Source of the DNA: Scilla litardierei | Lineage: Eukaryota; Streptophyta; Magnoliopsida; Asparagales; Asparagaceae | Assembly (NCBI GenBank): GCA_030789695.1 | Contig: CM061136.1 | Coordinates: 131,230,648 to 131,294,647, forward strand | Length of the DNA: 64,000 bases | Direction: 5' to 3' | Shown: piece after piece, positions 340 through 60,468 of the stretch | Numbering within the stretch: the first letter of the stretch is position 1 | Layout of the letters: every line of letters starts with the position of its first letter | Notes under the pieces: model-generated | What the model saw: only the letters and a program-made list of their open reading frames with translations | Told to the model about the DNA's origin: nothing | Database searches by the model: none | Position numbers and translations under genes: made by a program

Positions 340-3300
340 CAAGCTTCAGGCTTGCAGGTCTTTCAATTGTTGCATACCAATGTTCTTTACAAGCTTTACA
401 AAAGTACATTTGGGCAAAGACTTAGTAAAAAGATCAGCTAAGTTGTTGCAGGACTGGATCTGTCAAACTTCAATCTGCTTGTCCTCCTTTAGCTCATGTG
501 TCAAGAAAAACTTGGGAGATATGTGCTTTGTCCTGTCGCCCTTGATGTAGCCCTTTTGAAGTTGATCAATGCACGCAGCGTTGTCTTCAAACAGGACGGT
601 AGGCTCCAAATCACCGGTCTTCAGGCCAGTAGATTGAAGAATGTGTTGGACGCCGGATCGTAGCCAATAACACTCTCTGCTTGTTTCATGGATCGCAATG
701 AGCTCCGAATGGTTGGATGATGTAGCTGTTGTGGTTTGCTTTACAGATCTCCAGGAGATAGCAGTACCTCCGTAGGTAAAAACAAAACCTGTTTGGGATT
801 TTGCCGTGTGCGGATCTGAGAGATAACATGCATCAGCATAACCAAATAATTTGGGGTGGCACCTCTCTGGTAGTAAAGTCCAAGATCAATGAAACCCTGG
901 AGGTATCGCAGAAGATGCTTTACTCCGTTCCAGTGGCGCTTTGTGGGCGCTGCACTGTGTCTGGCTAGAAGATTAACTGTAAACGCTATATCGGGACGCG
1001 TACAGTTAGCCAGATATAGAAGTGCTCCAATGGCACTGAGGTAGGGTACTTCAGGACCCAGTATCTCCTCCCCCTCTTCCAGTGGCCGGAAGGGGTCCTT
1101 ATGTACATTTAGTGATCTTACGACCATAGGAGTACCTAAAGGATGACATTTATCCATATGAAACTTGCGTAGAAGTTTCTTTGTATAATTAGATTGGTAT
1201 AATAGGATTCCACCTCTTAGGTGTTCTATCTGTAAGCCAAGACAATACTTTGTTTTGCCTAGGTCTTTCATTTCAAAACTATGTTTTAGGCTTTCAGATA
1301 TCTCATTGATCTCTGTAGGAGATCCTATGAGATTTAAGTCATCTACATATACAGTTATGATGACGAATCCTGTTCCCGTTCTTTTGATAAAGATACACAT
1401 GCAAACTTCATTATTCGTGAATCCTTGCTGTGCAAGGAAATCACTAAGTCTGTTATACCACATCTTGCCCGATTATTTTAGACCATATAATGATCTATGT
1501 AGCCTTACAGAGAATACGTCCCGAGGTATCTCTTTCATCTCTGTGGGTAGATTAAACCCATCAGGAAGTCTCATATAGATATTTTTATCTATATCTCCAT
1601 ATAGATATGCAGTCACAATGTCCATGAGCTGCATTTCTAGGCTTTCCAGAGAAGTTAAGCTTATTAAAAATCGGAATGTGATCGAATCCATGACCGGGGA
1701 ATACGTATCTTCGTAATCAATCCCCGGTCTTTGAGAAAATCCCCGGGCTACAAGGCGTGCCTTATAGCGAACGATCACATTAATTTCATCTCTTTTTCTT
1801 ATGAAAACCCACTTATATCCCACAGGCTTTACACTTACTTGTGTTTGGACTACTGGTCCAAAGACTTTGCGTTTCAAGAGTGAGTCCAGCTCTACTCTTA
1901 TTGTCGCGTCCCACTTTGGCCAATCATCTCTGCGTTTACATTCCGCTAGAGATCGTGGTTCGACGTCATCGTCATATTCAGTGACGTGAACGGCAATATC
2001 GAACGCAAAATCGTCGTCAATGACTATGCTATTTCTGTCCAGTACTTCTCCAGTACGTGCAAAATTTAATGATGTTTCTCCTATTGTTTCCTCTGTCGGA
2101 GAAATCAGGAGGGGAGAAGTAGCTGGATTGAGCTCAGCATCCTGTGGAGGGATAATCTTAGTATCTCCAGGAGTCTTCCTCTTTCGAGGAACTTTATCTT
2201 TTGAACCTGGTGGACGTCCTCTTTTCATTTGAGGTACAGCCAATTCTGCTGCCGGTGGATTGCATCCATCTATGGGATGTCAATCCTAGCTGGCGTATTG
2301 GCAGCAGGGACGTGTGACCTTGAACTTATCCGGTAAAAGATGTACTGTATTCTGAATGTGAAGGATCTTCAGGATCTCATCTTCACACAGATTAGTATGC
2401 GGATCATATAGGGACAAAGACTTCTGGTCCCAACCAATGGTCTCAGTAGCTTCTGGCTTCTTAGACTGTGTGCCCAGTTTAGGAAAAATTTTCTCATCAA
2501 ATTCACAGTCAGCAAAATGTGCCTTGAATGCGTCACCCGTCAGGGGTTCAAGGTATCTGATAATAGAGGGCGAATCAAACCCAATATATATACCTAGACG
2601 ACGCTGAGGACCCATTTTGGTCCTCTGAGGTGGTGCTATTGGGACATATACCGTACAACCAAACACTCTCAAATGAGAGATATCCGGAGGTGCGCCATAT
2701 GCTAGTTGCATCAGGGATAAAGTATGACCTCCAGAGGGTCTTATCCTAATAAGTGATGCGGCATGTAAAATAGCATGCCCCAAGCATCCACCGGCAACTG
2801 GGATTGCATAAGCAATGGACGTGCAATCCATTGGAGTCTCTTTATAAGGGACTCAGCTAATCCGTTCTGGGTGTGAACATGTGCTACAGGATGTTCAACT
2901 TCAATACCCGTTGCCCGGCAATAGTCTTTGAAGACATGTGAAGTAAATTCTCATGCATTATCAAGACGTAGTTTCTTGATATGGTAATTGGGGAAATGAG
3001 CATGCAACCTTATTATTTGTGCCAATAGCTTTGGAAAAGCTAGGTTGCGGGTGGACAAGATGCACACATAAGACCATTTGGTTGATGTATCAATCAGTAC
3101 CATGAAGTACCGAAATGGGCCACTTGCGGGGTGAATATGCCCGCAAATGTCATCATGAATCTCTCAAGGAAGCCAGGAGACTCTAATCCCACTTTCAGGT
3201 GGGATGGTCTCGTTATAAGTTTTCCCTTGAAACAAGGGAGACAAGGAAATTCACCCTTTTGAAGAATCTTTAGGTTCTTCAATTTGTGTCCACGGGATTC

Positions 3301-3792
3301 AGTGATGATGCGTCACATCATTACTGTTCCAGGGTGACCAAGTCTATTGTGCCAGAGTTGGAACTCTAGCAGTGATTGGCACGTCTGGTGCTCAGTCATA
3401 TTGGCTTCTATTGGTTGAATGTATGTTTGATAGAGACCCGACGGGAGTCCCTTGAATCGTTCGCAGATGATCTTCTGGTCATCTTTCTGACGAGTTACAT
3501 ACAGATATTCAACCTTATTTACATCTCTGGTTTCTAAGTGATATCCGTTTAAACGGAAGTCCTTGAAACTTACAAGATTCCTATTTGATTTAGGAGAGAA
3601 TAATGCATTATTTATTTGAAGTCTTGTGTTATTTGGGAGCAATATAATTGCTTCACCAGATCCTTCGATTATTTGGAATACTCCTGAAATTGTGATAACA
3701 GGACCGTCATATTTATTTACGCTATTAAAATAGCAATGATCGCAAAGGATTGTGTGCGTCGAGGCACTGTCCACTAGGCACTCATACTTCAT
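340..3792 (-). pseudogene. copia pol pseudogene of element A
   Basis: This is a remnant of the polyprotein that matures, copies and integrates the element. From 3792 downward I see the aspartic protease motif LVDSASTH, the GAG-pre-integrase motif LWHNRLGHPG (about 3350), and integrase pieces between 3282 and 2286. Reverse transcriptase follows, with VTAYLYGD and IYMRLPDG (2243-1473) and the catalytic YVDD at about 1338-1349. RNase H comes last, with a frameshift near 830; its motifs (TGFVFTYGG, ISWRSVKQT) continue in another frame. An in-frame TAA interrupts LYGLK/SGKMWYNRL at about 1470-1475, and the integrase core between 2835 and 3090 is broken. The reading frame is clearly inactive. Confidence 0.85.
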
Positions 3793-7064: not shown

Positions 7065-10000
7065 TCCTATAAATCTATACATCAGTCTCCTATGTATCTA
7101 TGAGTTCATAGTTCTCTCATCCTGACCCAGTTTACATTTACTCACTCTCCTCATCCCAATCCCATATACAAGTTTCTCAAAGATACTAGTAGGCACGGAT
7201 TTGGTAAGCAAATCCGCCAAGTTATTACATGATTGGATCTTCTGTACCTCAATCTGCTTTTGCTTCTGAAGATCGTGCGTCCAGAAGAACTTGGGGGAGA
7301 TATGCTTCGTCTTGTGGCCTTTGATGTAGCCGTCCTGAAGCTAGGCTATACATGCTGCATTGTCTTCATGGAGTGGAGTAGGCGCAAGAACGCCGGTCAT
7401 CAGGCTGGTGGAAGTGAGGATGTGCTGGATCACAGAGCGTAGCCAGAAGCATTCCTTGCTTGCTTCGAAGATCGCTATGAGTTCTGAGTGAGTGGATGAG
7501 ACGGTCGTCATGGTCTGCTTTACAGATCTCCAGGATATGGTTGTGCCGCCGTATGTGAACATGTATCCGGTCTGAGACTTCTCTGTATGAGGATCGGACC
7601 TGTAACCTGCATCAGCATAACCAACTAAAACAGTTGATGCCCCTTTCCTGTAGAATAGACCTAAGTCTATGGACCCTTGGAGGTAGCGCAGAAGATGCTT
7701 AACTCCGGCCCAGTGCCGCTGTGTAGGTGCAGAGCTATATCTGGCTAGTAAGTTTACTGCAAATGCTATGTCGGGGCGAGTGCAGTTAGCCAGGTAAAGG
7801 AGTGCACTGATAGCACTTAAATAAGGCACTTCGGGGCCTAGTACTTCCTCACCCTCTTCCAGCGGCCGGAAGGGGTCTTTGTGTACATCCAATGATCTGA
7901 CGACCATCGGAGTGCTGAGGGGGTGGCACTTATCCATCTGAAACTTTTTCAATAAGTTCGATGTGTAAGTTGACTGGTGTAACAGGATCCCATCTTTAAG
8001 ATGCTCTATCTGAAGACCTAAACAGAATTTTGACTTTCCGAGGTCTTTCATCTCGAAGGTTTCTGTCAGGCTTCTAGAAATCTTTGTGATCTCTTCAGGA
8101 GATCCGATGAGGTTTAAGTCGTCTACGTAGACGGCTATAATTACAAATCATGTTGCCTTTGCTCTTATAAAGATGCAAGGACAGACTGGGTCGTTTGTAA
8201 ATCCTTGTTTTGTAAGGAAATCGCTCAATCTGTTATACCACATCCTTCCAGATTGTTTTAGACCATATAATGATCTTTGCAGTTTCACTGAGTAGATGTC
8301 ACGTTCTCTCTCTTTTAGTGCTGCAGGCAAAGAATAACCGTCAGGCAATCTCATATAGATGTCTCGGTCTTGGTTGCCATATAGGTATGCAGTAACCACG
8401 TCCATGAGTTGCATATCTAAACCCTCTTGGGCTGTTAAGCCAATGAGGAATCGGAAGGTGATCGCGTCCATGACCGGGGAGTATGTGGCTTCAAAATCCA
8501 CCCCAGGACGTTGGGTAAAACCCTGCGCTACAAGCCTTGCTTTATAGCGAACGATCTCATTCTTTTCATTTCATTTTCTAACAAATACCCATTTATAACC
8601 CACAGGTTTTACACCTTTTGGTGTCTAGACTATGGGTCCGAAGACCTTGCGTTTGGTGAGTGAATCCAACTCCACTCCTATTGCCGCTTTCCACTTTGGC
8701 CAATCATCTCTGCTTTGACATTCTGTCAGAGAGCGTGCTTCAATATCATCGTCGCAGTACGCGACGTTGATGGCAATATTACACGCAAATGTGTCATCTA
8801 TGGTTGTGCTTTTTCTGTCCCAATACTCCCCAGTTCGTACATAGTGTATCGATACTTCATTTTCTCATGGTTTTCCTCTTCATGAGAGTTTGGGAGAGAT
8901 GGGGTAGCAGGGCTTATATTAGCATCCTGTGGTGGTATTTGTTTACCATTGCCAAGGGTCCTACTCTTTCGAGGGACTTGGTCCTTGGATCCCGGTGGTC
9001 GCCCTCTCTTTTTGAGAGGTCCAACCATTTCTGCTGCAGGCGGATTGCATCCATTTTGCGGTATGTCAATCCTAGCTGGAGTGTTAGCAGCAGGGACGTG
9101 TGATTTGACCTGGTTGTCAGTAAATTTGTCCGGCAAGAGATGGACAGTGTTTTGGATGTGGAGAATCTTCAGGACCTCCTCCTCACACTGGCTTGTTGGC
9201 GGATCAAAGTGACATAATGTCTTTGTATCCCAAGTGATACTTTCTGAAGCTTCGGGCTTCTTTGTCTGTGAGCCTAGTCTTGGAAACGATGTTTCATCGA
9301 ATTCACAGTCTTCTAGACGTGCCTTAAAGACGTCTCCCGTAAGGGGTTCTAGGAATCTAATTATGGTGGGGGTGTCAAACCCAACATAAATGCCTAGGCG
9401 ACGTTGTGGACCCATCTTTGTCCTTTGCGGTGGTGCTATGGGGACGTATACTGCACAACCAAATATTCTCAAATGTGAGACAATTGGTGGGGCTCCAAGT
9501 GCTAGTTTCATTGGAGAAGATGACTGACCTCCAGAAGGTCTTAATTTTATTAAAGATGCAGCATGCAAAATTGCATGACCCCACGCATTCACTGGCATCT
9601 GGGATTGAAGTAATAATGGACGAGCGATCCATTGCAATCTCTTAATTAGAGATTCTGCTAACCCATTTTGGGTGTGAACATGCGCTACAGGATGTTCGAC
9701 TTCAATTCCCTGAGCTTGGCAATAGTCTAGGAAGACTTGTGACGTAAACTCCCCCGCATTGTCCAGACGAAGTTTCTTTATCTGGTAGTCGGGGAAGTGG
9801 GCCCGTAACTTGATTATCTGAGCTAAAAGCTTAGATAGTGCTAGGTTACGGGTGGACAGTAGGCACACATGTGACCACTTAGTAGATGCGTCTATCAGGA
9901 CCATAAAGTACCTGAACGGACCACTTGATGGGTGAATCGGCCCACAAATGTCTCCGTGGATTCTTTCCAGAAAACTGGGGGACTCCACGTCCACTTTCAG

Positions 10001-10624
10001 TGGGGAGGGTCTCGTGATCAGTTTACCCTTGTAACAGGGTGGACATGGGAATTTGCCTTTTTGAAGAATCTTCAGGTTCTTCAGGTCTATACCCCTGGAG
10101 TTCTTTATGATGCGGTACATCATAACAGAACCAGGGTGTCCCAGTCTACTGTGCCAGAGTTGGAATTCTGGTGTTTGGGGGCACTGCATGTGCTCCGCCA
10201 TGGATGTTTCTGGAGTTTGTATACTTGTTTGGTAGAGTCCCGAGGGGAGTCCCTTGAAACGTTCCACAATGGTTTTTGAACCATTTGTAAGAGACGTTAC
10301 AAGCAAGTATTCCCTTTTATCTTCCTCGACCGTCTCTAAGTGATATCCGTTTAAACGGATGTCTTTAAAGCTTAGGAGGTTTCGGATGGATTTAGGGGAG
10401 TATAACGCATTTTTAAGTGTTATTTGTGTGTTGCCGGGGAGCAATATAATTGCTTCCCCTGATCCTTCGATTATATTTGCTGGTCTTGATATTGTTCTCA
10501 GTGGTCCAGAATAGCTACTTATGCTCGTGAAGTAGTCTATGTTTTGAAGGATCGAGTGCGTCGATGCACTGTCCACTAGGCAGATAAGTTCCATATCTAA
10601 AAAAAAGGAAAGATATTCAAGCAA
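7065..10624 (-). pseudogene. copia pol pseudogene of element B (protease-integrase-RT-RNase H)
   Basis: A long open segment (10624-8798) carries protease (VDSASTHS near 10576) and LWHSRLGHPG. It also has an integrase with the DDE acidic residues in HGDICG, LDNAGEF and NGLAESLIKR. Reverse transcriptase follows at 8501-8148 (VTAYLYGN, IYMRLPDG) with YVDD at about 8117-8128, then the RT C-terminus and RNase H to 7341 (ISWRSVKQT, SSTHSELIAI). Breaks are a frameshift near 8850, in-frame stops at 8625-8627 (TAG), 8571-8573 (TGA) and 8148-8150 (TGA), and a stop within RNase H near 7341. The C-terminal end is traceable to about 7065. The RT active site is kept, but the polyprotein cannot be made in one piece. 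Confidence 0.9.
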
Positions 10625-17743: not shown

Positions 17744-18493
17744 TGTTGGATCGTGATCTAAGCCTAAAGGGAGGTGAATAGGCTTATAAACAATGTTAAC
17801 GAATATAGAAATAGTAGCCTACTCGGTCACATAATCACATAGCAAATACGTGCAGATAAAATATCACAGAAGTAGACACGGAGTGAACACGATATTTACC
17901 CTGGTTCGGTCACCCAACGACCTACTCCAACCCCAAAAATACTCACTAGAATAATAATGTCAAGATACACAACACACGGAAATTCATGCCCTAACACCCA
18001 GCTCACCAAGTCTGTATCTCTCACCAAAAGTGTCAACACTACTATTCTAGTAAATACTCTCTTTTGACTTGTCCCAACAAGTCAAAACGCCAAAAGAACC
18101 CCAAAAACGAAAGTGTAAAGTACAGAGGATCTAAAATGATTCAGTCACAAATAAAAATAGTGAAAATAGTTTACAGTGATCAGTTTGTGATGAATGAGTA
18201 GTCCTTGTCGTTGTTCTCATCGTCAGCTTCGCGCAAACAGTGTCTCAAACCGATGCATGAATCAAAAGATATGGTTCTCCAAAGTTGGTTGCGCAAATCT
18301 GTCTAAAAGCGGTCTGTACGCAAAGCAACTGAAGTTAGCTCGCTATGCCAACTAGTCATGCCCACGGAATTTTGGAGTTCTGCTCGGTCAGCAAGAGGGT
18401 CTGGCGCTGCTTGATGTGATGTGGTCTGTGTTCAAAGCAACTCTCTCCAATGGGTCAGCACACTGTCAAGCCCACAAACAATTTTTAACTTAT
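17744..18493 (-). repeat. solo LTR, SIRE-like copia, distal part
   Basis: This part begins TGTTGGATCGTGATCTAAGC on the plus strand and its partner (37569-38585) ends TTGTATCCAACA, giving TGTTGGAT/ATCCAACA termini. Together they form one LTR of about 1,760 bp with no internal region, inserted in the gag of the Tat-like element and split by the Athila element. Flanking pentamers GTTTC (17739-17743) and GTTGA (38586-38590) match at three of five positions, so the target duplication is decayed. Confidence 0.68.
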
Positions 18494-20020
18494 TGACGTC
18501 CCCTAGATTTGAGCATACAAGTGCAATAAGATCCGGGATACCAGATTTAAATATTTATACCGCAAGCGCACGGTGTTGTAGTGTGGCTTGGGGGTCGAAC
18601 TCAGGGAGACGTGTGTTTTGCTTGTCTCAAGGAGGAACCGGTTCACCCAATGGGTGAGCTAGCCCGAACAATCGATGGTTGTCACAGAATATAGATACGA
18701 AGGATAAATGATATAAAAGGAAACCTAGGACTTCGGTTTCCACCCTATCATGTGCTCTCACTATTACGACCGATGGATAGGAACACGATTGGATTTAGGG
18801 TTTAGTGGTGGGACGTTGCCTCTAAGAGTGATACCTAGCGTCCTATGGGCCCGATATTCCGGTCGATACCTAGGATGATACGCAAGGACTATCCGGGTTC
18901 GGTCGGTGGGCATTCCCATGTCCATTAACACCGACCGACTCCGAGAGTAATAAGCTCGCAACGATTACTCCCAACACTCATTCTGTCGCTCCCATGCGCT
19001 AGGATTCAATGTCTATGCTAGGGGCGTGAGCTGTGGCTAGGGAGTCAACCGCCAAGTTTATTCTCCCTTGGCCCGACGGTCAGAGGCGGTCTTTCTCCCG
19101 TCAATGACAATGAAACACCCCGCGTAACCATCTAAATTCCTAAACCCTATCGAAATCCTAATCCTATAGTCGTTCTAGGGAGAACCCACGAAGGGGTTTC
19201 CACCAAAATCCCAGATTTGGGAACTACTCATAATTCATGGCAAAATCACAATCTAAACAAAATTCAACGGTAGAAATCATGATCAAGCAATAGAAAACAG
19301 TTGCTAGCAATTGTATTAAGACAATATTAAAGTTTCGAAGTAATCAGAACACTTACAAAATAGAAGAAAATTCCAGCCGTCACACCCAAGAAAAAAGACA
19401 GAAAATAATAACGTCCGTTTTTGAAAACCTTAGGTCAGCTATATATAAAAACAAGGTCACCTGATCGGTTGAAGCATCAACCGATCGGGTGAGCTGCTTG
19501 TCGTGATGGCCATCGGGCTTCAGAAAGCTTCAACTAGGCGTTGAGGAGAGCGGGTGGCGTGACCGGGTCGTCGCTTGGGAATTTCAGCTTCAGATGAACC
19601 GATCGGTTGAGTTTTCAACAGATCGGTTGGAATTAAGCCTAAAAAGATAGAAAGCTCGGTCGATCTCACCCGATCAGCGAACCGATCGGATGAGTTGCCC
19701 TTCTCTTCAGCTCCTGTCCGGGTCGGATACGCATGCACCAACCGATCGGTTGGCTTTGTCCAATCGATCGGTTGGGGGCTGTAATATGGGTATCTTCGTC
19801 GTTTGGCCCTCTGGATCATGCGTGACTCCTCCCGTTGCTCCAGGGACTCATGATATCTTCTTTATATGTCCCCGACGCTGGAAATCTCCTGCATTTACAC
19901 AAAAACAAGGAGAAAGTGAAAAGATACAAAAAACACAAAAGAATGGGTATGAAACAACAGAAAACGGCAAAAAATCACGAAGAAGACGTGCGTGAATATA
20001 TAAAATATAAACGCACGTCA
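18494..20020 (-). repeat. 3' LTR of the Athila element
   Basis: Pairs with 36040-37568. It contains four pairs of ACCGATCGGT-like palindromes at 19460-19775. Confidence 0.93.
19460..19775. repeat. paired ACCGATCGGT palindrome array in the Athila 3' LTR
   Basis: GATC cores of the palindrome-like units lie at 19463/19483, 19601/19621, 19662/19684 and 19744/19766, so pairs are spaced 20, 20, 22 and 22 bp. The same array is at 37007-37320 in the other LTR. Related units recur inside the element at 32678-32952. Confidence 0.8.
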
Positions 20021-22767: not shown

Positions 22768-24731
22768 CTAGGTAGATGATGGAGGGGTGTGGGCAGGATA
22801 GGTGATGGGTGTGCAGAGAAGTGGGGAGAGGAGTGGAGGTGGTGGGTGGATGGATGCGGAGGTGTGAACAATCGGTGGTGTGGTGGTGATGATGGTGAGT
22901 GGTAGGGATATGGCGACCGATGCGGTGGAGGATGGGTAAGATACGGTGATAGAAGTGGATGGTGTGGGAAGTGATCTCGAGCGCACCGGTAATTTCTTGC
23001 GGCGCGAGTATGCGGTGATGGAAGTGGAGGGTGGTGGATCTGTGGGGTCGATGGTAGTGGTCGTGAGTGGAGGTGTAGTGGTTGGAATGGAAACAGTGGT
23101 GGCATGAGGGGAAGATCGCGTAGGGGGTGATGGATGTGGTGATGAATGTGATGGGGGAGGTGATGAATGTGATGGGGAAGGTGAAGATCGTCGAGAAGGT
23201 GAAGGGGGTGCCGAGGTTGGAGGAGTGGGTGGAGGAGGACCGTAGATGTGTGTGAGGTGGCGGAGAATGGTGGCCACGTTTCGCTCGAGTGCGAGGAAAC
23301 GTGGGTGCGAGAAGAAAGAAGAGGACAGGTCCGAGGGGATAAAGGCAGATGCGCCAGCGTGCAGAGAAGCTAAATCAGTCTCTAGAGCGAGATGAGTGGA
23401 GGTGGCTCGATGAATAGAAGAAGTAGTGGCCAGACGGACAGTGGAAGTGGTGCCAGTAGCAGTGGTCGTGCCGGCACCGGAGGCAAGGCCAAAGAGGGCC
23501 GAAGTCAGAGCCTCAGAAGAAATAGGGACAGAAGCCGGGATGGCACTACTGGGTCCAGCCCCGGGGTCTCCTCTAGACGCAGGGATGTCCTGCACGCCTA
23601 AGTAGGCGGCAGGGGACGGTGGGAACTGAAGATGTAACCCCCTAGAAACTCTGGATCAGGAGGGAACGTCCAATCTGCCACAAGAACGATAGACATACGA
23701 CCAGAGTTGGACAGAATGGTGTAAGGAGCAGGGGTGACCGTAGTAGAAGGTAAAACGACTGTCGCCACGAGGCTTGATCATATGAGTGTGCTGCGGGACA
23801 TCAAGATTTAGACATGTAGATCCTGCGGCATGTGGCAAATCTCGGGGGATAACGATATTGAACAGGGGATGTGAAGCAATGATGGTAATGAGGCCCACGC
23901 AACAATACTTGCCCTTGCCGGCACGACTTCTATCAAGTAATTTATGAATAAGCCAAGTGCCAACATTAATAGGTATGACAGGGGCCTCAAAAGCAATCCC
24001 GTCAGCACCATGAATAAAATCGAAAGCCATAGCACATAGGATAAAAAGGTCATGGATAGTCACGGTACCTGACTCATCCCTGGGAAAGAAAGTGCTAGAT
24101 AAGATGCGGTGAGCTAGACGAAATACTGGGTCAATGATCGAGTAGGCCTTGGCCTTGCCTCGAGGATATCGGTCGTAGAGGGTGAGGCGACCCCAAAATA
24201 TATCGACATCGAAGTCGCGGTGATATTCATAGGGATGGATGATGTTGCCGTCAAGAATGGGGAAACCGAAAATGAGATTGATTTCGTTCAAGTGTGTGCG
24301 GATGTTTCGGTTTCAAACGCGGAAATTGATAATGGACCCCGCCTCACATTTGAGGGAAGATAGGAATTCTAGTGTGAGGGCGGGTAAGATTGGGTGTGGG
24401 CATTTAAGAAAGGTATCCATCTTAAGTTAGCGAATATGGTCTCGACCTCAGAGAAAACTCCGAGATCGATCAGAGTTTGGGTATGTGCAAACTTAGTGGA
24501 TAGGTGTGACCGTTTGTTGAGTCTATTATAAAAATCTTTCTGATCACGACGCAGGAAACGGTATCCACGCGGTCCCATCAGTGGGTCCTCGGGAGGGATA
24601 ATTGTTTGGGGAGGGGGTTGGGTAGGGGAAGGTGGAGGTGCACGTGTATGTAGATGTGTAGATTTATGTCTCTTGCGAGACGGCTCTTCTTCGCTCATGA
24701 TACCCTTACCCTTGTCCATGTCCTTAACCAT
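22768..24731 (-). pseudogene. ATHILA ORF-type protein at the env position, broken
   Basis: The start at 24731 (MVKDMDKGKGIM) is followed by a basic, proline-rich segment and a region like the ATHILA ORF-1 family: YRFLRRDQKDFYNRL, then LTLEFLSSLKCEAGS and NEINLIFGFPILDG. The middle part continues (PVIPINVGTWLIHKLLDRSR), then comes a short helical segment (FLALERNVATILRHLTHIYG) and a Ser/Pro/Thr-rich C-terminus ending at 22768. Breaks are a frameshift near 24415, an in-frame stop near 24320, and an in-frame TGA near 23656. No signal peptide or transmembrane segment is seen, so membrane-envelope function is not supported. Its role in the family is unknown. Confidence 0.72.
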
Positions 24732-25090: not shown

Positions 25091-26906
25091 TGTAAGGATC
25101 CTGTCTATGGGGAAAACGCTAGAAGGGGGATTGAATAGTGTTTATGCAAATTTAATAGGAATTTACGCCAAATAAAATGCAATCCAACAAATAGTGCGGA
25201 ATAGAAAACAACCCAAAGAGAAACACACGCAAACACAGTTATGTTTCAAGGGTTCGGATTACCCAAGTCAACTCCCGACTTGTTCCCGGTAATCCTACGT
25301 CCCTACCACCCGGATACCACCGGATACTCAAGTTAGAACCCTAACTTGAGGTTTCCTTAAACCCCACTTGTAGCAACCCTACAAGTGCAATCGAAGACAA
25401 TCGATGTCCTTGACTCCCACAACCCGGGAGCAAGCAAAAACCACTCTCACAACCGAGAGCACAATTCAAATAATGAAGTTATGAAATCTGAAAGCAACAC
25501 TTACAATCACATATGCCTTGAAGTAGAACTTGAAGGAGAAGTGTGATGTGTGTTGAAGAACTCTCTTGGAAGAGAGGAGGAAAGCCCTTTCTCTTGACTG
25601 TACTAAATGCCTAGAGGATCAATCTTTGGTTCTAGGTTGGAGAGCAAGAGAATCAGATTTAGAAATGCTAAGGGCTTTGGATTTGAAAGCTTTGATCTTT
25701 GGAAATGAAAGCTTGAAAAATTTTGCAATGAATGAGTAACCTTCCAATGAAACAGTAGAAGCTCTATATATAGCTTTCTCAAATCCACAAAACAGTTTAG
25801 GCAAAAACCCAATCGAAATCCGTGAGAAAAATCTCAACGGATATAATCTGAACTCGCAACAATCGACTGATGAACAAAACACAGTCGACTGCTGCACAGT
25901 CAGCAAGGGTAGGTGAGAATTCATAATGGTAACTTACCACGTGGACAGTCGACTGATGAAGCCAAGACAGTCGTCTGTAAAACCAATAGGCGACTGTACA
26001 TTCTTCGACAGGCGACTGACCGAGAGAAGAATAAGTTAGAAGAAGTACTGGAAATCTCACAAGATACAGGACAGACGACTGATGCAAGGAACACAGTCGA
26101 CTGTTAATCAGAACAGGCGACTGTATAACCTTAAACAGACGACTGTCACAGACAGGAGAAATTTCCAGAGAGCTAAGTCAAAGATTAGACTTACAGACAG
26201 GCGACTGTTGCAGCATAGACAGTCGACTGATCTAATATACAGTCGACTGTATATACAGCATAAGTCGACTGGCCGTAGAAATCGGATCAAACAGAGTTTG
26301 GGCAAGGAGAGACAGGCGACTGATGAACCACTCATAGTCGACTGTCGCTAAGACAGGCACCTGATAAACGTTCAACAGTGGCCTGTGCGAGATAATCAGA
26401 GAGGATCCAAAAACTGCATTATAATAGTCTGTGCATAACAGGCGACTGTAGAACAAAACACAGTCGACTGTTTTTGAGACAGGCGACTGCAAACTGTTAA
26501 GCAGTCGGCTGTTATAAACAATCCTAGCACAAACAAAAGAGAAATGGATTGCGATCAAAGGACGAAGGTCTAGAGATGTCCTATGGCCGAAAGTAAATGT
26601 GTGTACGTGCTCCATCATAGTTCTACTTCTAAGCTACATACTAGAAGAGATAAAAGAAAAATTACATTGACGAATAATCTCTTCTTTCCATCGTATGAGC
26701 TTGAAGTCTTTACGGAGCTTCAATCATCAATCTACGATCATCCAATTCATCTCATTAGCCTTCAATCACGTTTGTGAGTCATACATTGCTAGTTGATCTT
26801 CATAGTAAGCTTAGACAATGGATTAACTGCAAAATAGGGGATTAGTCACAAGTATTTATGTTTGCTCATCATTAACACCAAGTAGGGAGAAGTCCAATAC
26901 TCAACA
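25091..26906 (-). repeat. 3' LTR of the SIRE-like element (1816 bp)
   Basis: Termini are TGTAAGGATC and ATACTCAACA on the plus strand (TGTTGAGTAT...GATCCTTACA in element orientation). It abuts a textbook purine tract at 26907. It contains the phased palindrome array at 25860-26511. Confidence 0.9.
25860..26511. repeat. phased CAGTCGACTG palindrome array in the SIRE-like LTR
   Basis: There are 22 units of CAGTCGACTG or variants (CAGGCGACTG, CAGACGACTG, CAGTCGTCTG). Unit starts are 25860/25882, 25946/25968, 25987/26009, 26072/26094, 26114/26136, 26198/26220, 26240/26262, 26313/26335, 26354/26376, 26439/26461 and 26480/26502. Every pair is exactly 22 bp apart, and adjacent pairs are joined by 19 or 20 bp. 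Five quartets result, with starts 126, 126, 115 and 126 bp apart. The 12-bp spacers vary. Confidence 0.9.
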
Positions 26907-26921
26907 TTCTCCCCCTTTTTG
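26907..26921 (-). promoter_or_regulatory. polypurine tract of the SIRE-like element
   Basis: Minus-strand AAAAAGGGGGAGAA directly precedes the LTR start TGTTGAGTAT, as usual for SIRE-type copia elements. Confidence 0.88.
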
Positions 26922-27781
26922 ATGATGACAAACAAACATAAACAAAAAGATAAATAGTTATGCGTAATGAAAACATACTCCCCCTACACAGATGCCAATC
27001 AAGTTAGTCAACAAATATTAGAGCATTTATAAAGTAATTGAAGCAAATGAGTGAGATAAGAATGAATTTAATTCAAGGAATCTAGGAAGTAAAATCCCTA
27101 TTCATTGTAATCTTACTCCCCCTGAATCTAAGGCATCGAAAATCTTAGATTCAAGCGTTAGAACATACTTAGCACATCCATTATGAATCTTGTATGTTTA
27201 TTTCTCTCCCCCTATGGTATTATCCAAAAAGGCGGGAGCAAATAACAACAACAATAATAGTGCTAAAATACGAACTAACAACAATCAAGGAGTATAAAGA
27301 TATATCGAATCAAAAAAACTCATAAAATCTCATCATATACACATGTGAGTAATGGAATTGAAATCCAATATCAACATTTTAGATATTCGAAATGAAAATA
27401 ATTTTCACAAATTCAGCACATCAACGAAAGAGCATGAATTAACCAATATCAAATTTGTGTATTGTCTCAAAAGCACATCAAGAAGAGTGAAGCATACATA
27501 GAGACAATATATCATACATCACACAGAAGTTAATCAATATAGCATAGTGTGATACAAGAGAGGGATGCAACATCATATATATAGATATAAAGAAGCTGAG
27601 TACATCAACGGATGGTCATCAACATGGCCATCCCAAAAAGATACATCATGAGCAACAAAAAAATAGCTACATCATGACAACATCAAAGACTGTATCAATA
27701 CACATATAAAAAAGTATCACATACATCAGCATCCATCATACAACGACAAAACATATAACAAAATCACTCATAAATATCGAT
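26922..27781 (-). other. noncoding 3' region of the SIRE-like element
   Basis: AT-rich sequence between the accessory ORF and the polypurine tract. Short AG-rich CTCCCCCT boxes (27115-27123, 27207-27215) resemble the tract itself. No gene is seen. Confidence 0.6.
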
Positions 27782-29227
27782 CTAAGGGTGAGTGTCTCCA
27801 GGGTCTGTGGACGAGGGGGCAGGCTCTGACGCAGCAGGAGTGTCCTCTGGAGAAGGATCAGATGGAGCAACAGCAGCAACAGCAGCAGCAGCATCCTGTG
27901 TAGAGGCAACACCAGGAGGCTCAACGTCACTAGAAGGCTGAGGAGGCACATGGGTCTGAGGAAGATACTGTCTCAAATCCTCAGGGAAGGGAATTCCATG
28001 ATGGAGGAGAGAGAGAGACAGCAACCGGTAAATACCAGAGATCATCGACAAAATAGTATCCTGAGACTGTGGAGCAGATGATGATGAAGGCAAATCGGCT
28101 GGAGGCACAGTGGATGAGGGTGGAGCAGAAATAGTCTTCCTCTTCTTCGAGGCAGTCTGCAGAGCCGAAGAGGACTTCGACTTCGCAGAAGCGTCGAGGA
28201 GAGGGCCAAAGGGCATGGGCTCGTAATGGGTCAGGTCAATACCAAAGTGACGGAAGACACGAGTCAAAAGACCACCAAAGGGAATGTGAGACGAGGAGGA
28301 CGTGAACTCAACCTTGTCCATCCTGTCAAGGAGGACACCGGCCCAGTTCACGGGCATGCCAGAGAGAATAGCATACATACACTTTAGTATATCTTGAGAC
28401 GGCTGATCGGACGATCTATATCTCGGTAGAATGTTGGACTTCACCACTAGGTGAACAGCCCAATCCCGTGCAGAGAACATGGATGATCTGACACCCGAAT
28501 CAAGAGCTAAAGGAACCTCTCGAAACATATCCCGGAGAACAGACTGATCAAGATCGTCAATCTCAGAGAAGCTGATATCAGTGGGGAGGGAACCGACAGA
28601 AGGAATCCTAAGGATAGTCCCTAAAAGAGAGGGAGTGAGCAGAATGTGGGTTCCCTGGACGACAGTATCAAGGATGCCAGTAGTCGAATACTCACCGCGA
28701 ACGCGGTTCGCATAGAAGAGCTTCACCAGAAATGGGTAGGCTCTAGGGGACTCGCTCTGAGAGAAGCGAAAAAGATCGGCCAGATGAGTAGCGGACAGAA
28801 TGTCAGAAAGTCTCTCAGCAGTAAATGCGGGGAAAGCAATGTACCGCTCCCTAAGCAGATTGATCCCAAGAAGAGAATGGAACTTTGCCAGACAAAGATC
28901 GTCTCTGCAAACAGGAACCAGGGGATTAGAGGGGGGTACTGCAGGAGTTTCTTCAGACGAACTGGATGCAGAAGGAGACACATGAGGACTCTCAGCAGCA
29001 GGCTCACTGATGTGAACACCAGTAGGCTTGCGCTGACGACGAATCAAGGGCTGAGCATCACTCGACGAAGAAGAAGGAGAATAACCCGGTGACAATGAAC
29101 GTATGGGTGACTGGGCAAACTTGGTTCGAGCTTTGTAGGGTTTCTTTCTCTTGGCGATGAGTTTCTTAGGAGCCTTAGGTTGTTTAGAAGCAATGATCTT
29201 CTCTTTTCCCTTAGGTTTAGGAGCCAT
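27782..29227 (-). CDS. intact 481-aa accessory protein of the SIRE-like element (putative plant transposon protein domain)
   Basis: A single uninterrupted frame starts at 29227 (MAPKPKGKEKIIASKQPK). It has a strongly basic N-terminus with runs suited to nuclear localisation, a Ser-rich linker, and then a globular region of about residues 110-350. That region includes YPFLVKLFYANRVRGEYST and HILLTPSLLGTILRIPSVG, the pattern of the putative plant transposon protein domain found in extra ORFs of plant retrotransposons. A second basic patch (SKKRKT) and a Ser/Pro/Ala-rich tail follow. There is no signal peptide or membrane segment. It occupies the env position of SIRE-type elements. It is the only unbroken element protein in the nest although the element around it is dead. 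Biochemical function is unknown; a nuclear nucleic-acid-binding role is inference. Confidence 0.72.
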   Translation of the reverse strand: MAPKPKGKEKIIASKQPKAPKKLIAKRKKPYKARTKFAQSPIRSLSPGYSPSSSSSDAQPLIRRQRKPTGVHISEPAAESPHVSPSASSSSEETPAVPPSNPLVPVCRDDLCLAKFHSLLGINLLRERYIAFPAFTAERLSDILSATHLADLFRFSQSESPRAYPFLVKLFYANRVRGEYSTTGILDTVVQGTHILLTPSLLGTILRIPSVGSLPTDISFSEIDDLDQSVLRDMFREVPLALDSGVRSSMFSARDWAVHLVVKSNILPRYRSSDQPSQDILKCMYAILSGMPVNWAGVLLDRMDKVEFTSSSSHIPFGGLLTRVFRHFGIDLTHYEPMPFGPLLDASAKSKSSSALQTASKKRKTISAPPSSTVPPADLPSSSSAPQSQDTILSMISGIYRLLSLSLLHHGIPFPEDLRQYLPQTHVPPQPSSDVEPPGVASTQDAAAAVAAVAPSDPSPEDTPAASEPAPSSTDPGDTHP

Positions 29228-29574
29228 GGGAACAAGAGAGGAAAATCAAACACAACAACTGGAAACGATGGTCGAGAGAGAGAAAACACACCAACCGAAG
29301 GAAGATAGACGATCGCGAAGATGAAGATCAAATACGACGGTAGAGCACGACTAACAGCGACGATTGGGAGGAGATCGACGGTTGAAGACACGAAATCGAT
29401 TGATTTTGTAGAGAGAATCAAGCGGGAAGTTGAACGGTCGATGCGGAGGAGAGAGAAAACGACGTGGGGAAATGATCGCGTCGGTTGAATATAAGGTCAG
29501 GAAAAACATTCTGAGCCGTTGGATCAAAGAATCGACGGCTCGGATCAAATCAAATGAACCGACACAGCAGGAGA
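29228..29574 (-). promoter_or_regulatory. spacer between palindrome array and accessory ORF
   Basis: About 350 bp just upstream of the accessory start codon, without a gene. It would contain the 5' leader if the ORF has its own promoter. No convincing TATA box was picked out. Confidence 0.35.
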
Positions 29575-29927
29575 CAGTCGACTGGAGAACAAAAGTCAGT
29601 CGACTGTAAGAAATGATAAAATTAATTCTCAGAAAGATGGGCAGTCGACTGGCAAGTAAAATGCAGTCGTATGTCTGATGGACAGTCGACTGACATATAC
29701 TCAACAGTCGGCTGGCCGAGAATTAATACAGATCACAAGAAAAAAAACAGAGAATACTGTAAAAGGTTCGACAGAGAGTACAGTCGCCTGATGACTAAAT
29801 TGCAGTCGCCTGTTACATGAACAGTCGACTGTAATACAGTCTACAGTCGGCTGTGCGAAAGATATCAGTTTTCATATGAAAGATATAGAGTAGGGCAGTC
29901 GACTGTCAAAAGAAACACAGTCGTCTG
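29575..29927. repeat. second CAGTCGACTG palindrome array, upstream of accessory ORF
   Basis: There are 12 units with starts 29575/29597, 29642/29664, 29683/29705, 29781/29803, 29822/29844 and 29896/29918. Every pair is spaced 22 bp, as in the LTR array, and two quartets have offsets 0/22/41/63. The array lies between the end of pol and the accessory ORF, about 350-700 bp before its start codon. Confidence 0.9.
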
Positions 29928-30196: not shown

Positions 30197-32553
30197 CTAG
30201 ATTTCAGATTCACCCATAATTCCCAATTCTCCACGCAACCTCACAAATGAATCTTCTTTAAGAGGTTTAGTGAAGATATCGGCAATTTGTTTTTGGGTTT
30301 CAATGTACTCTAAGATGATGTCCTTCTTAGCTACATGATCATTTATAAAATGGTGTCTCACGTCTATGTGTTTGGTACGGGAGTGGTGTACCGGATTCTT
30401 GGAAAGACAAATAGCACTTTGATTATCAACCATGATAGGGCAAGTATCACAATTGACACCATAGTCACTAAGAGTGTGTCTCATCCAAAGAACTTGTGCA
30501 CATGCAAGACCTGCGGCAATATATTCCGCTTCAGTAGTGGACAATGAAACCGAATTCTGTTTCTTAGAGAACCAAGAAACCAAGGAATTTCCTAATAAAT
30601 GGCATGTGCCACTAGTACTTTTCCTGTCGGACTTGCATCCGGCAAAGTCGGCATCACTATATGAGATTAACTCATATGTGCTAGACTTAGGGTAAAGTAA
30701 CCCATAATCTAGGGATTGATTGAGATAACGAAATATTCGTTTAACCGCAATCAAGTGTGACTCCTTAGGTCTTGCTTGATATCTAGCACAAATGCATACG
30801 GAAAACATGATATCGGGCCTACTAGCGGTTAAGTAAAGTAAGCTACCGATCATACCTCGATATAGACGAACGTCAACATCTTTTCCGCTTTCATCCTTGT
30901 GCAGATGAGTAGTAGTACTCATGGGAGTCCTTTTTCTTGAAGACGATTCCATCCCGAATCGCTTAATAAGCTCCCCTGTGTACTTTGTCTGATGTATGAA
31001 AGTGCCATTCTCCATTTGTCGAATTTGCAATCCAAGGAAGTAGGTGAGCTCTCCCATGTGGCTCATCTCAAACTCATCCTTCATAGATTTGGAAAATTCT
31101 TGACAAAGATGAAAGTTAGTAGAACCGAAAATAATGGCATCTACATAAACTTGAATCAAAAGAATGTCATTTTCATAATCTTTAATGAAAAGTGTAGAAT
31201 CAACTTCTCCCATTTTAAAACCTAAATTCAAAAGAAAGTTCTTAAGGCGATCATACCAAGCTCTAGGAGCTTGTCTCAATCCATACAACGCTTTCTTAAG
31301 TTTGAAAACATGGTTTGGAAATTTCTCATGAATAAAACCGGGAGGTTGAGAAACATAGACTTCTTCATTTACAAACCCATTTAAAAATGCACTTTTAACA
31401 TCCATTTGGAATAACTTAAAATTCTTATGGGATGCAAAAGATAAAAGCAACCTAATAGCTTCTAATCTAGCTACGGGGGCAAAGGATTCTTCGAAATCAA
31501 TACCTTCCTCTTGCCGATAGCCTTGAGCTACTAACCTTGCTTTGTTCCGTGTGATTACCTCGTTTTCATCCGTCTTGTTCTTGAAGATCCATTTGGTCCC
31601 AATAGCTTGGTGACCACTTGGAAGAGGTACAAGTTCCCAAACTTCATTTCTCTCGAATTGCGCTAGTTCTTCTTCCATAGCAACTATCCAAGAACTATCC
31701 TCACAAGCTTCTTGAATGTTCTTTGGCTCAATGGTAGAGACGAATGCGCAATGGGAGAATTCTTCAATTCTTGATCTCGTTCGAACACCCACACCAATAT
31801 CTCCAATGATTTGGTTATGAGGATGGTTGCGAACGGTTGGATAAGCTTTGGCTAAACCTGGATCACTAGGAACAACTTCAACAACTTCGTTAGAAGTGTT
31901 AGTCTCAACAATATTATCATTAATCTTGACATTATTAAGAGAATCACAAAGAATGTCTACATTATCATCATCAACATGAGGAAAATCAAAATCTTCATAA
32001 AACGATACGTGAAGTGATTCCTCAATCGTTGAAGAAGTTTTGTTGTATATCCGGTAGGCTTTGCTACGTGTGAAATATCCAACAAAGATTCCTTCATCGG
32101 ATCTTGGCTTAAATTTGTCTAAATTACCAAAGGTGTTCTTTATAAAACATTTTGAACCAAAGACACGAAAATATTTCACTTGAGGCTTTTTATCGTAAAA
32201 CAACTCAAAACAAGTTTTGTTTGTTCGGGGTCTCACTAGGATTCTATTGAGCACATAACATGCCGTGTGCACCGCTTCTGCCCAAAATTGTAGTCCTAAA
32301 TGACTATCATGGAGCATAGTGCGAGCACACTCAATAAGAGTCCTATTCTTTCTTTCTACAACACCATTTAGTGGTGGTGCACGAGGAAAGGAAAAGTTTT
32401 GAGTTATCCCGGAGTCATCACAAAACTTAGTAAAAGATTCATTCTCAAATTCTCCTCCATGATCACTACGAATAGTGATAATGGTGGATCCTAAAAGATT
32501 CTGAATCTTCTTTGCAAATTTGGTAAACTCTTCATGAGCTTCATTCTTATTAG
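30197..32553 (-). pseudogene. SIRE-like copia pol, integrase C-half to RNase H, 5' truncated
   Basis: The frame is open from the deletion junction (about 32553) to 30197. It starts inside integrase ([16 protein letters not shown]), keeps IRSDHGGEF and [10 protein letters not shown] with the last two acidic residues, then the integrase C-terminus. Reverse transcriptase follows ([52 protein letters not shown]), then RNase H ([17 protein letters not shown]). The RT catalytic box reads YVDA instead of YVDD; the changed codon, GCC on the minus strand, is at 31136-31138. With no gag, protease or integrase N-half, and a mutated RT centre, it cannot work. Confidence 0.9.
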
Positions 32554-32568
32554 ATACTCAACAGGTTG

Positions 32569-33139: not shown

Positions 33140-34177
33140 TTAAGGTGGTTGGTGCGGGTGATGCCCGATGATTGGCATCCCATCAGCTCTTGGTGCAGCG
33201 GTCCTCGTCAGTGGTAGGGGTTGCAGGTAGACGCTCTCCACGATCCTCCCGCTGGTGGTATCCGGGGGCTTCTCCCTCATGTTGGCGTCTACCGCCACTC
33301 TTTGAAGTATCCGGACTTCCTCAGTAGTGAGTCCCATGGGATCTTTTCCTTTTCTCCTTGTCAGAGCAGCCTTCTGGAATCCAGGAGGGGTCGTCACGGA
33401 GGGAGACACTTCTCCGGTAACTTCTTCTTCTTCTAACCCAGCATGGTCCTCCAGGGTTCCCAAGCTATCAGGGGGGTTCCTCGAGAGGATCTCCCAAGCT
33501 CCAGCTTCTACTACTCTTTCCTCTTTAGCTTCCAGCACGTTGCAGCTTTGCTCCTCAGACGGATGCTTCATAGATAGTCCCAAATCAAATTCGACCTTCT
33601 GGTCGCCCATATTTAGGGACAGCTTCCCCTTCTTCACATCAATTAACACGCCAACGGTCTCCATGAAAGGCCTCCCGAGGATGATCGGAGTATGATTTTC
33701 TTCTGGCATGTCCATCACAACAAAATCTACAGGCACATGCACGCCTCTGACGTTTACTGGCAGGTCATCCACAATCCCCATCGGATACTTGACTGATCTG
33801 TCTGCAAGCTGTAACGTCATACCGGTGGGTTCAAGGTCCCCCATTCTGATCCTCTTGAATAAAGATAGAGGCATCAGACTAACGCTCGCACCCAAATCGA
33901 CGAGCGCCCGATTTATCTTCACTTCTCCTATCGTGCATGGGATAGAGAAGCTACCTGGGTCCTTGAGCTTGGGCGGATTCGCTCGCTGAATCAGGGCGCT
34001 GCACTCCGCTGTGAGGACGACTTTTTCTTTTCTTGACCCTCTGGTCACCAAGTCCTTCAAGAATTTTTCATAGGACAGGATAGTCTCTATAGCCTCGAGG
34101 AAAGGGATCTGCAAGCTCAAGTCTTTGACCATATCAAAGAACTTGCCATATTTCTCATCAATCTTTGCCTTGGCAAG
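33140..34177 (-). pseudogene. Athila aspartic protease domain
   Basis: From 34177 the frame reads a gag linker (KYGKFFDMVKDL...LSYEKFLKDLV), then a retropepsin-like domain. The active-site motif ALVDLGASVSLMPLS has its Asp at about residue 79 from 34132. The flap region (QLADRSVKYPMG) and the C-terminal ILGRPFMETVG follow. The DLGAS form is usual for Athila/Tat-type gypsy elements. The segment is open for 330 codons but separated from gag by a stop near 34178, and no RT follows. The C-terminal stretch to 33140 has no recognised domain. Confidence 0.8.
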
Positions 34178-36032: not shown

Positions 36033-36039
36033 TAAAGCT

Positions 36040-37568
36040 TGACGTCCCCTAGATTTGAGCCTACAAGTGCAATAAGATCGGGGATACCAGATTTAAATAT
36101 TTATACCGCAAGTGCACGGTGTTGTAGTGTGGCTTGGGGGTCAAACTCAATGAGGCGTGAGTTGTGCTTGTCTCAAGGAGGAACCGGTTCACCCAATGGG
36201 TGAGCTAGCCCGAACGATCAATGGTTGTCACAGAATATAGATACGAAGGATAAATGATATAAAAGGAAACCTAGGACTTCAGTTTCCACCCTATCATGTG
36301 CTCTCACTATTACGACCGACGGATAGGAACACGATTGGATTTAGGGTTTAGTGGTGGGACGTTGTCTCTAAGAGTGATACCTAACGTCCCATGGGCCCGA
36401 TATTCCGGTCGATACCCAGGATGATACGCAAGGACAACCCGGGTTCGGTCGGTGGGCATTCCCATGTCCATTAACACCGATCGACTCTGGGAGCACTAAG
36501 CTCGCAACGATTACTCCCAACATCTCATACTGCTGTTCCCACGTGCTAGGATTCAATGTCTACGCTAAGGGCGTGAGCTGTGTCTAGGGAGTCAACCGCC
36601 AAGTTTATTCCCCCTGGCCCGATGGTCAGAGGTGGTCTTTCTCCCGTCAATGACAATGAAACACCCCGCGTAACCATCTAAATTCCTAAACCCTATCGAA
36701 ATCATAATCCTATAGTCGTTCTAGGGAGAACCCACGAAGGGGTTTCCACCAAAATCCCAGATTTGGAAACTACTCACAATTCATGGCAAAATCACAATCT
36801 AAACAAAATTCAACGGTAGAAATCATGATCAAGCAATAGAAAACAGTTGCTAGCAATTGTATTAAGACAATATTAAAGTTATAAAGTAATCGGAACACTT
36901 ACAAAACAGAAGAAAATTCCAGCCGTCACACCCAAGAAAAAAGACAGAAAATAATAACGTTCGTTTTCGAAAATCCTAGGTCAGCTATATATAAAAAACG
37001 AGGTCATCCGATCGGTTGAAGCATCACCGATCGGGTGAGATGCTTGTCGTGATGGCCATCGGGCTTCAGAAAGCTTCAACCGGGCGCTGAGGAGAGCGGG
37101 TGCCGTGACCGGGTCGTCGCTTGGGAATTTCAGCTTCAGATGAACCGATCGGTTAAGTTTTCAACCGATCAGTTGGAATTAAGCCCAAAAAGACAGAGAG
37201 CTATGTCGATCTCACCCGATCAGCGAACCGATAAGGTGAGCTACTCTTCTCTTCAGCTCCTGTCTGGGTCGGATACGCGTGCACCAACCGATCGGTTGGC
37301 TTTGTCCAACCGATCGGTTGGGGACTGAAATATGGGTATCTTCGTTGTTTGGCCCTCTGGATTGCGCGTGACTCATTCCGTTGCTCCGGGGACTCATGAT
37401 ATCTTCTTTGTATGTCCCCGACGCTGGAAATCTCCTGCATTTACACAAAAACACGGAGAAATTGAAAAGATACAAAAAAAACACAAAAGAACGGGTATGA
37501 AACAACGGAAAACGGTGAAAAATCACGAAGAAGACGTGCGTGAATATATAAAATATAAACGCACGTCA
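36040..37568 (-). repeat. 5' LTR of the Athila element
   Basis: Pairs with 18494-20020 and is followed by the CTTAT target duplication at 37569-37573. It carries the palindrome pairs at 37007-37320 with GATC-type cores at 37010/37029, 37147/37167, 37208/37230 and 37290/37312. Confidence 0.93.
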
Positions 37569-60011: not shown

Positions 60012-60155
60012 GGCTATCATAAGCCATATGAGAGCTTCTCTCATACGCTCTCTCACAAAAAGCACCCAAGTACAAGCCCACATAGGCTAGTACTTGGTTG
60101 TACTTGGGTGCTTTATGTGAGAGGACGTATGAGAGATGCTCTCATATGGCGTATG
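60010..60155. mobile_element. foldback MITE family Z, copy 5, split by a retrotransposon
   Basis: The left arm, loop and most of the right arm lie here (TGGCTATCATAAGCCATATG ... CTCATATGGCGTATG). The last bases (GTATGATAGCCATTATTCTC) lie at 62758-62777 after the inserted LTR element. GTATG is duplicated as its target site. Confidence 0.88.
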
Positions 60156-60443: not shown

Positions 60444-60446
60444 AAT

Positions 60447-60460
60447 TGGTATCAGAGCGG
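60447..60460 (+). promoter_or_regulatory. primer binding site, initiator methionine tRNA type
   Basis: TGGTATCAGAGCGG lies three bases after the LTR, a standard plant primer site. Confidence 0.9.
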
Positions 60461-60468
60461 TTTGATCC

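Follow-up and report, generated by a model that had tools for sequence, protein, structure and literature searches.

The closest described systems to the decamer arrays reported here are the repeated motif (RM) boxes of Sireviruses, the palindromes of maize Sireviruses and the target arrays of VANC proteins, for which the following is taken from the parts of the cited papers drawn on here. The RM boxes (Bousios et al. 2010, PMC2829016) are sets of at least eight palindromic boxes that start 200–400 bp past the LTR start, extend over 300–500 bp and lie upstream of the TATA box. Further boxes lie upstream of the env-like gene. They were reported to be CpG-rich, to define CpG islands and to have a CGG-CCG core; Tnd-1 in the 2010 set is, like the boxes described below, without this core (PMC2829016). 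The binder of the RM boxes was left open in that paper, which called for reporter tests. For maize Sireviruses, a hairpin and small-RNA role was proposed earlier, the palindromes being reported as small-RNA hotspots with strong structure (PMC10760457, PMC5311732). VANC binds arrayed 9-base motifs in the non-coding parts of its own element (PMC5735166; PMC10398659). Here we analyze two arrays of palindromic decamers in an element of a 3.68-Gb plant genome. We identify this element as a Sirevirus and the two arrays as its RM boxes.

The element and its surroundings

The window (the whole 64,000-nt stretch of DNA analyzed) contains a 5'-truncated Sirevirus copy of the Ty1/copia type on its minus strand. 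The 3' LTR spans 25091..26906 (minus strand, 1816 bp; the element sense is the minus strand), as given by the ends of sibling alignments. For the siblings, the 652-bp LTR array was used as the query and 40 of 4025 first-look candidates were scored (the window and 39 siblings, 97–98% identity). The alignment of 30/39 siblings halts exactly at 25091. At the other LTR edge, 14/39 halt exactly at 26906, 20/39 continue to 26999–27000, into the internal region, as 3' LTRs, and five end elsewhere. The window copy cannot show the primer-binding site (PBS) junction because it is 5'-truncated; among the 40 loci (39 siblings and the window), the PBS after the LTR end (TATCAGAG) was found in 13, and in these the Sirevirus junction CA / ATTGG / TATCAGAGC was present with the exact 16-mer (9/13) or with one change (4/13). 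Four polypurine tracts with AGGGGGAG in the linker have their sense starts at 27213, 27123, 26985 and 26920, and match the Sirevirus feature of several polypurine tracts upstream of the 3' LTR, compared by their multiplicity. The terminal polypurine tract (26909..26920, minus strand) is followed by AA and then by the TG of the LTR. This AA was found in 18/18 loci with the junction pattern among the 40 examined, whereas AT stands between the terminal tract and the TG of the 3' LTR in 20 Sireviruses, according to the part of the 2010 paper drawn on (PMC2829016). AA differs by one base from a feature that is common, though not universal, among Sireviruses.

The pol ORF (30197..32557, minus strand) covers the end of the integrase and the reverse transcriptase, the match to its relatives starting inside the integrase at 32557, and is of the copia type (RVT_2, PF07727, E 5.9e-78); placement within copia is by the junction features. 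Another ORF (27782..29245, minus strand, 487 aa from stop to stop) matches a putative plant transposon protein family and is a candidate env by position. Pfam returned Transposase_32 (PF20167) alone for this env-like ORF, and a protein search gave no match with the whole ORF and one match with its middle part. Relatives of the env-like ORF lie beside 3/6 other pre-env arrays inspected (7 stretches, positions estimated): they were found in L088, L089 and L090, and not in L086, L087, L091 and L092, the last two being the two sides of one array. Since L086 and L087 have other ORFs at the env position (240 aa and 226 aa, respectively), the env-like gene may be exchanged while the array stays.

The Sirevirus is enclosed by an LTR pair (18493-20020 and 36039-37568, 93.8% identical), and matches to ATHILA ORF-1 (23656-24312) and to an aspartic protease (33140-34177) were also found, which suggests that it was inserted into an older Athila-like element. 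Elsewhere in the window, direct repeats at 60148-60443 and 62464-62757 (98.3% identical), together with a primer site, ATTGGTATCAGAGC, at 60450 on the plus strand, make up a small LTR element of about 2.6 kb (60148-62757), and two more copia-like pol remnants are located at 355-3423 and 7146-10204 (about 25–36% identity to the pol-relative queries).

Two arrays of paired decamers

The LTR array (25860..26511) consists of 22 palindromic decamers in 11 pairs, each 22 bp apart. It begins 395 bp past the LTR start and spans 652 bp; in the element sense, the promoter TATA box follows 88 bp beyond its end. This box reads AGCTATATATAGAG in the sense orientation, and its TATATA is located at 25767..25772 (minus strand). 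Five quartets, each made of two inverted pairs, and one single pair (25860..25891) build the array. The centre between the two pairs is 9 bp in quartet 1 (25946..26018), quartet 4 (26313..26385) and quartet 5 (26439..26511), and 10 bp in quartet 2 (26072..26145) and quartet 3 (26198..26271); quartet 4 contains the two most degenerate neighbours, 26354 and 26376. A sequence-only reading of this DNA had given the same extent, the same 22 decamers, the exact 22-bp distance in 11/11 pairs, quartet offsets of 0, 22, 41–42 and 63–64, and successive quartets that begin 126, 126, 115 and 126 bp after one another, and our recount agrees with it on all of these. The second array (29575..29927), upstream of the env-like ORF in the element sense and missing from that reading, has 12 decamers in six pairs, all at 22 bp, arranged as two quartets and two single pairs. 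The exact 22-bp distance is thus found in 17/17 pairs of the window.

With 28 occurrences of CAGNCGNCTG in the window, 27 of them inside the two arrays, and 0.30 expected (100 shuffles), the decamer arrays are not a product of chance. Decamer 26354 has three mismatches to CAGTCGACTG, and the other 21 LTR decamers have zero to two. The consensus CAG-n-CG-n-CTG is nearly fixed at 8/10 positions (31 to 34 of the 34 decamers of both arrays), position 2 being always A and position 9 always T (34/34). In the LTR array, the identity is 0.85 among decamers and 0.40 among the 12-bp spacers within the pairs (shuffle null 0.31); over both arrays, spacer identity is 0.37 vs 0.32 when shuffled. CpG observed/expected is 0.85 in the LTR array and 1.00 in the second array vs 0.50–0.70 in other parts of the LTR and in pol, at a G+C content of just 0.45 and 0.42, respectively. 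A perfect G-box, CCACGTGG, is located at 25937-25944, one base off the decamer at 25946, and overlaps a near-palindrome, GGTAACTTACC, at 25928-25938.

Quartet symmetry and helical phase

The quartets are inverted repeats of pairs, not direct ones. In the window, the identity between spacer 1 and the reverse complement of spacer 2 was 0.476 in the same quartet, 0.375 across quartets and 0.27 when shuffled, and permutation across the seven quartets gave p 0.015 for this spacer complementarity. The same comparison in 38 related sequences gave 0.498, 0.451 and 0.31, respectively, with the same-quartet value above the cross-quartet value in 32/38. Furthermore, the spacers have an orientation, their identity being 0.42 when oriented vs 0.33 in random orientation.

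The 22 sites of the LTR array showed a phase coherence of R = 0.87 at a best period of 10.50 bp over 61 turns (P = 0.004, with one shared random shift per gap class). The second array fitted best at 10.69 bp, and at 10.5 bp gave R 0.42 and P 0.31. The proposal that four sites face one side of the helix is supported for the LTR array and does not hold at 10.5 bp for the second, in which phasing near this period is weak. The best period was 10.30–10.60 in 39/41 arrays, with R at exactly 10.5 ranging from 0.23 to 0.87; the 41 arrays are related by descent, and phase coherence across them is not independent. Ten hand-listed classes of pair-start distances gave R 0.57 at 10.5, but 0.52–0.57 at 10.3–11.0 as well, and 22 bp corresponds to 2.1 helical turns, not exactly two. 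At one locus (L057, G000 C1:2942190-2942259), perfect decamers are repeated at steps of 20, 20 and 20 bp, which looks like recent growth by tandem duplication.

Pairs across the genome

Perfect pairs with any gap of 4–34 bp were found at 42,017 places genome-wide (16 in the reversed-pattern control). A 12-bp gap accounts for 25,691 places (control 0) and a 13-bp gap for 36 (control 0), the latter apparently mostly with one or two copies per spacer and without having founded a large family. In 42 array sequences, 40 of which were chosen for holding at least one perfect pair, the distances between neighbours within 15–28 bp were 22 (300 times), 21 (6), 20 (26), 19 (84) and 18 bp (24), and none of 23–28 bp was found. 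Indels that freely change the 22-bp distance, named beforehand as a refuting result, were not seen (25,691 places with a 12-bp gap vs 36 with a 13-bp gap genome-wide, and 21 bp 6 times vs 22 bp 300 times in the 42 sequences).

The Vitis box, CGGTCGACCG, formed eight such pairs in this genome vs ten in the reversed control. In viral contigs, neither the exact pair pattern (0) nor a match to the pol was found, and a three-decamer pattern gave 0 matches both in viral contigs and in genome contigs.

Rates of change between diverged lineages and among young siblings

To compare rates, 40 loci (20 + 20) were taken from the listed perfect-pair places on contig 1 (0–7.4 Mb); every locus has one perfect pair or more, and some are the two LTRs of one element. 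Pattern and BLAST matches served to sort the loci into two LTR groups, A (that of the window) and B, and one of pre-env arrays; this grouping (A, B and E), like the ten distance classes, was set by hand. Among the first 20 loci, seven of group B match the window LTR inside the array only. The annotation of pairs needs decamer matches in the query, a bias that we checked by annotating with a third sequence, and many of the 217 alignable pairs share loci, so disjoint draws were used.

At a flank divergence of 0.12–0.18 (112 non-independent pairs), transversions per site were 0.043 in decamers, 0.202 in spacers, 0.119 in the rest of the array and 0.076 in flanks. Between diverged lineages, decamers thus accumulate transversions at about half the rate of the flanking LTR and nearly five times below that of the 12-bp spacers, and the constraint that had been suggested for the decamers themselves is backed by these values. 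Disjoint pairs (divergence 0.10–0.20, median 15 pairs, 200 draws) gave 0.040 in decamers, 0.189 in spacers, 0.117 in the rest of the array and 0.076 in flanks, and indels per substitution in these pairs were 0.037 in spacers vs 0.156 in flanks and inter-pair DNA. At a divergence of 0.10–0.22, the rates of decamers, spacers and flanks were 0.039, 0.181 and 0.078 in group A (58 pairs), 0.045, 0.196 and 0.073 in group B (74 pairs), and 0.023, 0.185 and 0.080 in the pre-env group (8 pairs). With the third-sequence annotation (12 loci), the same order was obtained above a divergence of 0.10 in the two higher bins (16 + 37 = 53 pairs); at the lowest divergences (two bins, of 5 and 3 pairs), the decamer rate was not below that of the flanks, and in the second of these bins spacers were not above decamers. 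Group A at 0.05–0.10 (6 pairs) showed no rate difference, and at a flank divergence below 0.03 (8 pairs) decamers (0.0135) and spacers (0.0159) were similar, with flanks at 0.0093. The least variable positions in the LTR comparison were A at position 2 (0.03) and T at position 9 (0.01). Spacer differences were rich in transversions (154/210 over the seven comparisons of the window with L048 and L055–L060, of which 27/30 in that with L058; flanks 476/882).

Meanwhile, the decamers were not slower than the spacers among the 39 young siblings and the window, which were ranked by similarity to the array itself, a ranking that lowers array variation relative to flanks. Variants other than C>T/G>A numbered 34 over 220 decamer sites, 18 over 132 sites of the 12-bp spacers, 5 over 47 loop sites, 36 over 253 inter-quartet sites and 255 over 1164 flank sites. 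Variants of the C>T type were densest in decamers (54 in 220 sites vs 17 in 132 spacer sites): after insertion decamers are quick to decay, and even so they remain common to diverged lineages. The sibling arrays showed an insertion within a decamer and four deletions of one base each in the DNA between quartets, and no indel was found in the 12-bp spacers among the 39 siblings and the window. Because the siblings are nearly identical, we read the young copies as mostly recording decay after insertion, so that they do not test selection; decamers no slower than spacers are what dead copies would show. Decamers that diverge as fast as spacers across copies, named beforehand as a refuting result, are seen among the young siblings and in some low-divergence bins, and not between diverged lineages. 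As the contrast between decamers and spacers appears with lineage depth, the decamers and the 22-bp distance look to be held by selection in reproducing lineages, with spacers that would be free or faster than free.

A putative pair-binding enhancer and its rivals

We consider it probable, on the pattern of conservation and spacing, that the decamers are U3 enhancer sites bound in pairs by a putative dyad-symmetric protein. From the sites, their rigid distance, conservation pattern and placement, and the inverted quartet, all observed directly, we infer protein binding, its stoichiometry and promoter activation as follows. The arrays would be RM control regions, one in U3 just upstream of the TATA box and one upstream of the env-like ORF. 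The dyad symmetry of each CAGnCGnCTG decamer suggests a site for a homodimer, and the pair, whose sites are separated by 22 bp or about two helical turns, would be the working unit of a dimer of dimers. A distance that stays rigid while the spacer changes in sequence but not in length suggests a protein that would touch the two decamers and leave the intervening 12 bp free. Pairs placed head to head with an 18–20 bp step into quartets suggest a larger symmetric assembly, and in the LTR, where the quartets lie on one helix face, such complexes could stack and activate the promoter. The low variability of A2 and T9 would be explained by base-specific contact, and not by mere CHG context. We count against the pair-binding reading the kinship of the arrays, the R range of 0.23–0.87, the 10.69-bp period of the second array, the 2.1 turns of 22 bp, and the young siblings and low-divergence bins without slower decamers. 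To our knowledge, some plant factor motifs share a few bases with the decamer and none fits it as a whole, and the naming of a specific transcription factor was dropped for this reason.

A more tentative reading, which we think rather unlikely, is that a cooperative, perhaps element-encoded protein demands the decamers and the 22-bp distance while the spacers diversify to escape small-RNA-directed methylation, because any 21–24 nt guide must read through a spacer. Spacers that change 2.5 times faster than the flanking LTR between lineages, mostly by transversions and with few length changes, speak for this; against it, the difference may simply come from constraint on the flanks. Were the spacers driven by escape from small RNAs, an arms race would have left a visible mark within a promoter.

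The main rival to pair-binding is that the selected feature is a hairpin of RNA (or extruded DNA), with a d1:d4 and d2:d3 stem and a 9–10 nt loop, which would feed or dodge small-RNA silencing. For the LTR array, folding of the sense transcript is 8.4 sd better than that of 20 dinucleotide-shuffled sequences, and both the spacer complementarity within quartets described above and the maize palindromes reported as small-RNA hotspots (PMC10760457, PMC5311732, in the parts drawn on) fit this proposal. However, when the decamers were kept and the spacers shuffled, the folding excess was moderate for the LTR array (z −3.0 to −3.1), and for the second array was z −2.3 on one strand and −5.8 on the other. 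Decamer variants were not compensated in the partner arm (window p 0.87), and in 38 sequences the compensation was 0.801 in the same quartet vs 0.793 across quartets, with the former higher in 19. Moreover, a hairpin needs equal arms, not 22 bp, and the three single pairs of the window also keep 22 bp; the spacers pair at only about half their positions and change fastest. We therefore think it unlikely that a hairpin is what selection maintains. Tandem duplication without function, in which the regularity would be a memory of copying, had been named beforehand as the alternative. It is in line with the shared ancestry retained in spacers (oriented 0.42 vs random 0.33) and with young siblings without slower decamers, but not with spacers that are far more diverged than decamers between lineages and show few length changes, nor with the 13-bp-gap pairs, which arise (36 places) and founded no large family. 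Duplication is probably how the array grew, and is disfavoured for the decamers, as whose full explanation we hold it to be very unlikely.

A reading that we give very little probability treats the decamer as a methylation-context island that packs CHG-CG-CHG and is kept via host methylation or its avoidance. CHG allows A, C or T at position 2, yet A is found in 34/34 decamers, as is T at position 9, and the 22-bp distance is left unexplained, although the CpG values of the arrays (0.85 and 1.00 vs 0.50–0.70 elsewhere in the LTR and pol) and the density of C>T type variants in sibling decamers would agree with such an island. It is also highly improbable that the binder is encoded by the element itself and, like VANC, binds motif arrays in non-coding parts and removes silencing. 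For such a protein speak the binding of VANC to arrayed motifs of its own element and the position of the arrays here, one in the LTR and the other ahead of an ORF with a match to a putative family of plant transposon proteins. Pfam, however, shows only Transposase_32 in this ORF, whose relatives are found beside just 3/6 of the other pre-env arrays (7 stretches, positions estimated); RMs are retained in the LTR by Sireviruses that lack an env ORF (4 of 13, PMC2829016 Table 3, in the part drawn on), and the motifs of VANC21, which are non-palindromic, all point the same way in their arrays.

Comparison with known systems

The pair-binding reading can be set against the literature searched. No work on helical phasing with retrotransposon palindromes was found, and for Sirevirus with helical, the sole use in the available text of the 2010 paper (PMC2829016) is a reference title. 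A search for the Sirevirus repeated motif with transcription factors gave just the 2010 paper and a review of repeats in humans. Among the matches listed for binding to one helix face in LTRs, none was on Sireviruses by title, and the decamer as text led to unrelated animal, human-cell and microbe work by title, among the matches listed. In the text of the 2010 paper drawn on (PMC2829016), 22-bp pairs, inverted quartets and helical phasing were not found. The box sequence, and the strict geometry with separate rates, were thus not found in the literature searched; the maize palindromes are represented in it by citing papers, and the 2016 Genome Research paper on them may describe their spacing. 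The geometry provides a sharp handle, namely a 32-bp probe (decamer, any 12 bp, decamer) with wrong-spacing controls, and tens of thousands of natural copies separate the fixed parts (decamer and distance) from the changeable spacer.

The arrays are similar to the VANC target arrays of VANDAL elements in having short arrayed motifs in the non-coding parts of a plant transposon, with repeats that diverge between relatives; unlike here, the VANDAL motif is non-palindromic, has one orientation and has a known element-encoded binder, the binder here being putative (PMC5735166, PMC10398659, in part). With the maize Sirevirus palindromes they share a cis-region in the LTR, rapid sequence evolution and hairpin potential (PMC5311732, PMC10760457, in part), whereas the maize motif is CACCGGACNNNGTCCGGTG (PMC10760457). 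In the arrays described here, decamer, spacer and distance evolve at different rates, a comparison with maize that is made through the citing papers alone. The closest match is to the RM boxes as described in the part of the 2010 paper drawn on (PMC2829016). There are 22 boxes, the first 395 bp in and the TATA box 88 bp beyond the last, over a 652-bp span that exceeds the published range; a second cluster of 12 boxes lies upstream of the env-like (by position) gene; and the boxes are dyad-symmetric, high in copy number and located in U3. The core is CAG-CG-CTG here and CGG-CCG there, and, in terms of symmetric transitions, the box is intermediate between those of Vitis, CGGTCGACCG, and Tnd-1, ACAATCGATTGT (PMC2829016). 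The kind of feature is therefore one already known, the Sirevirus repeated motif.
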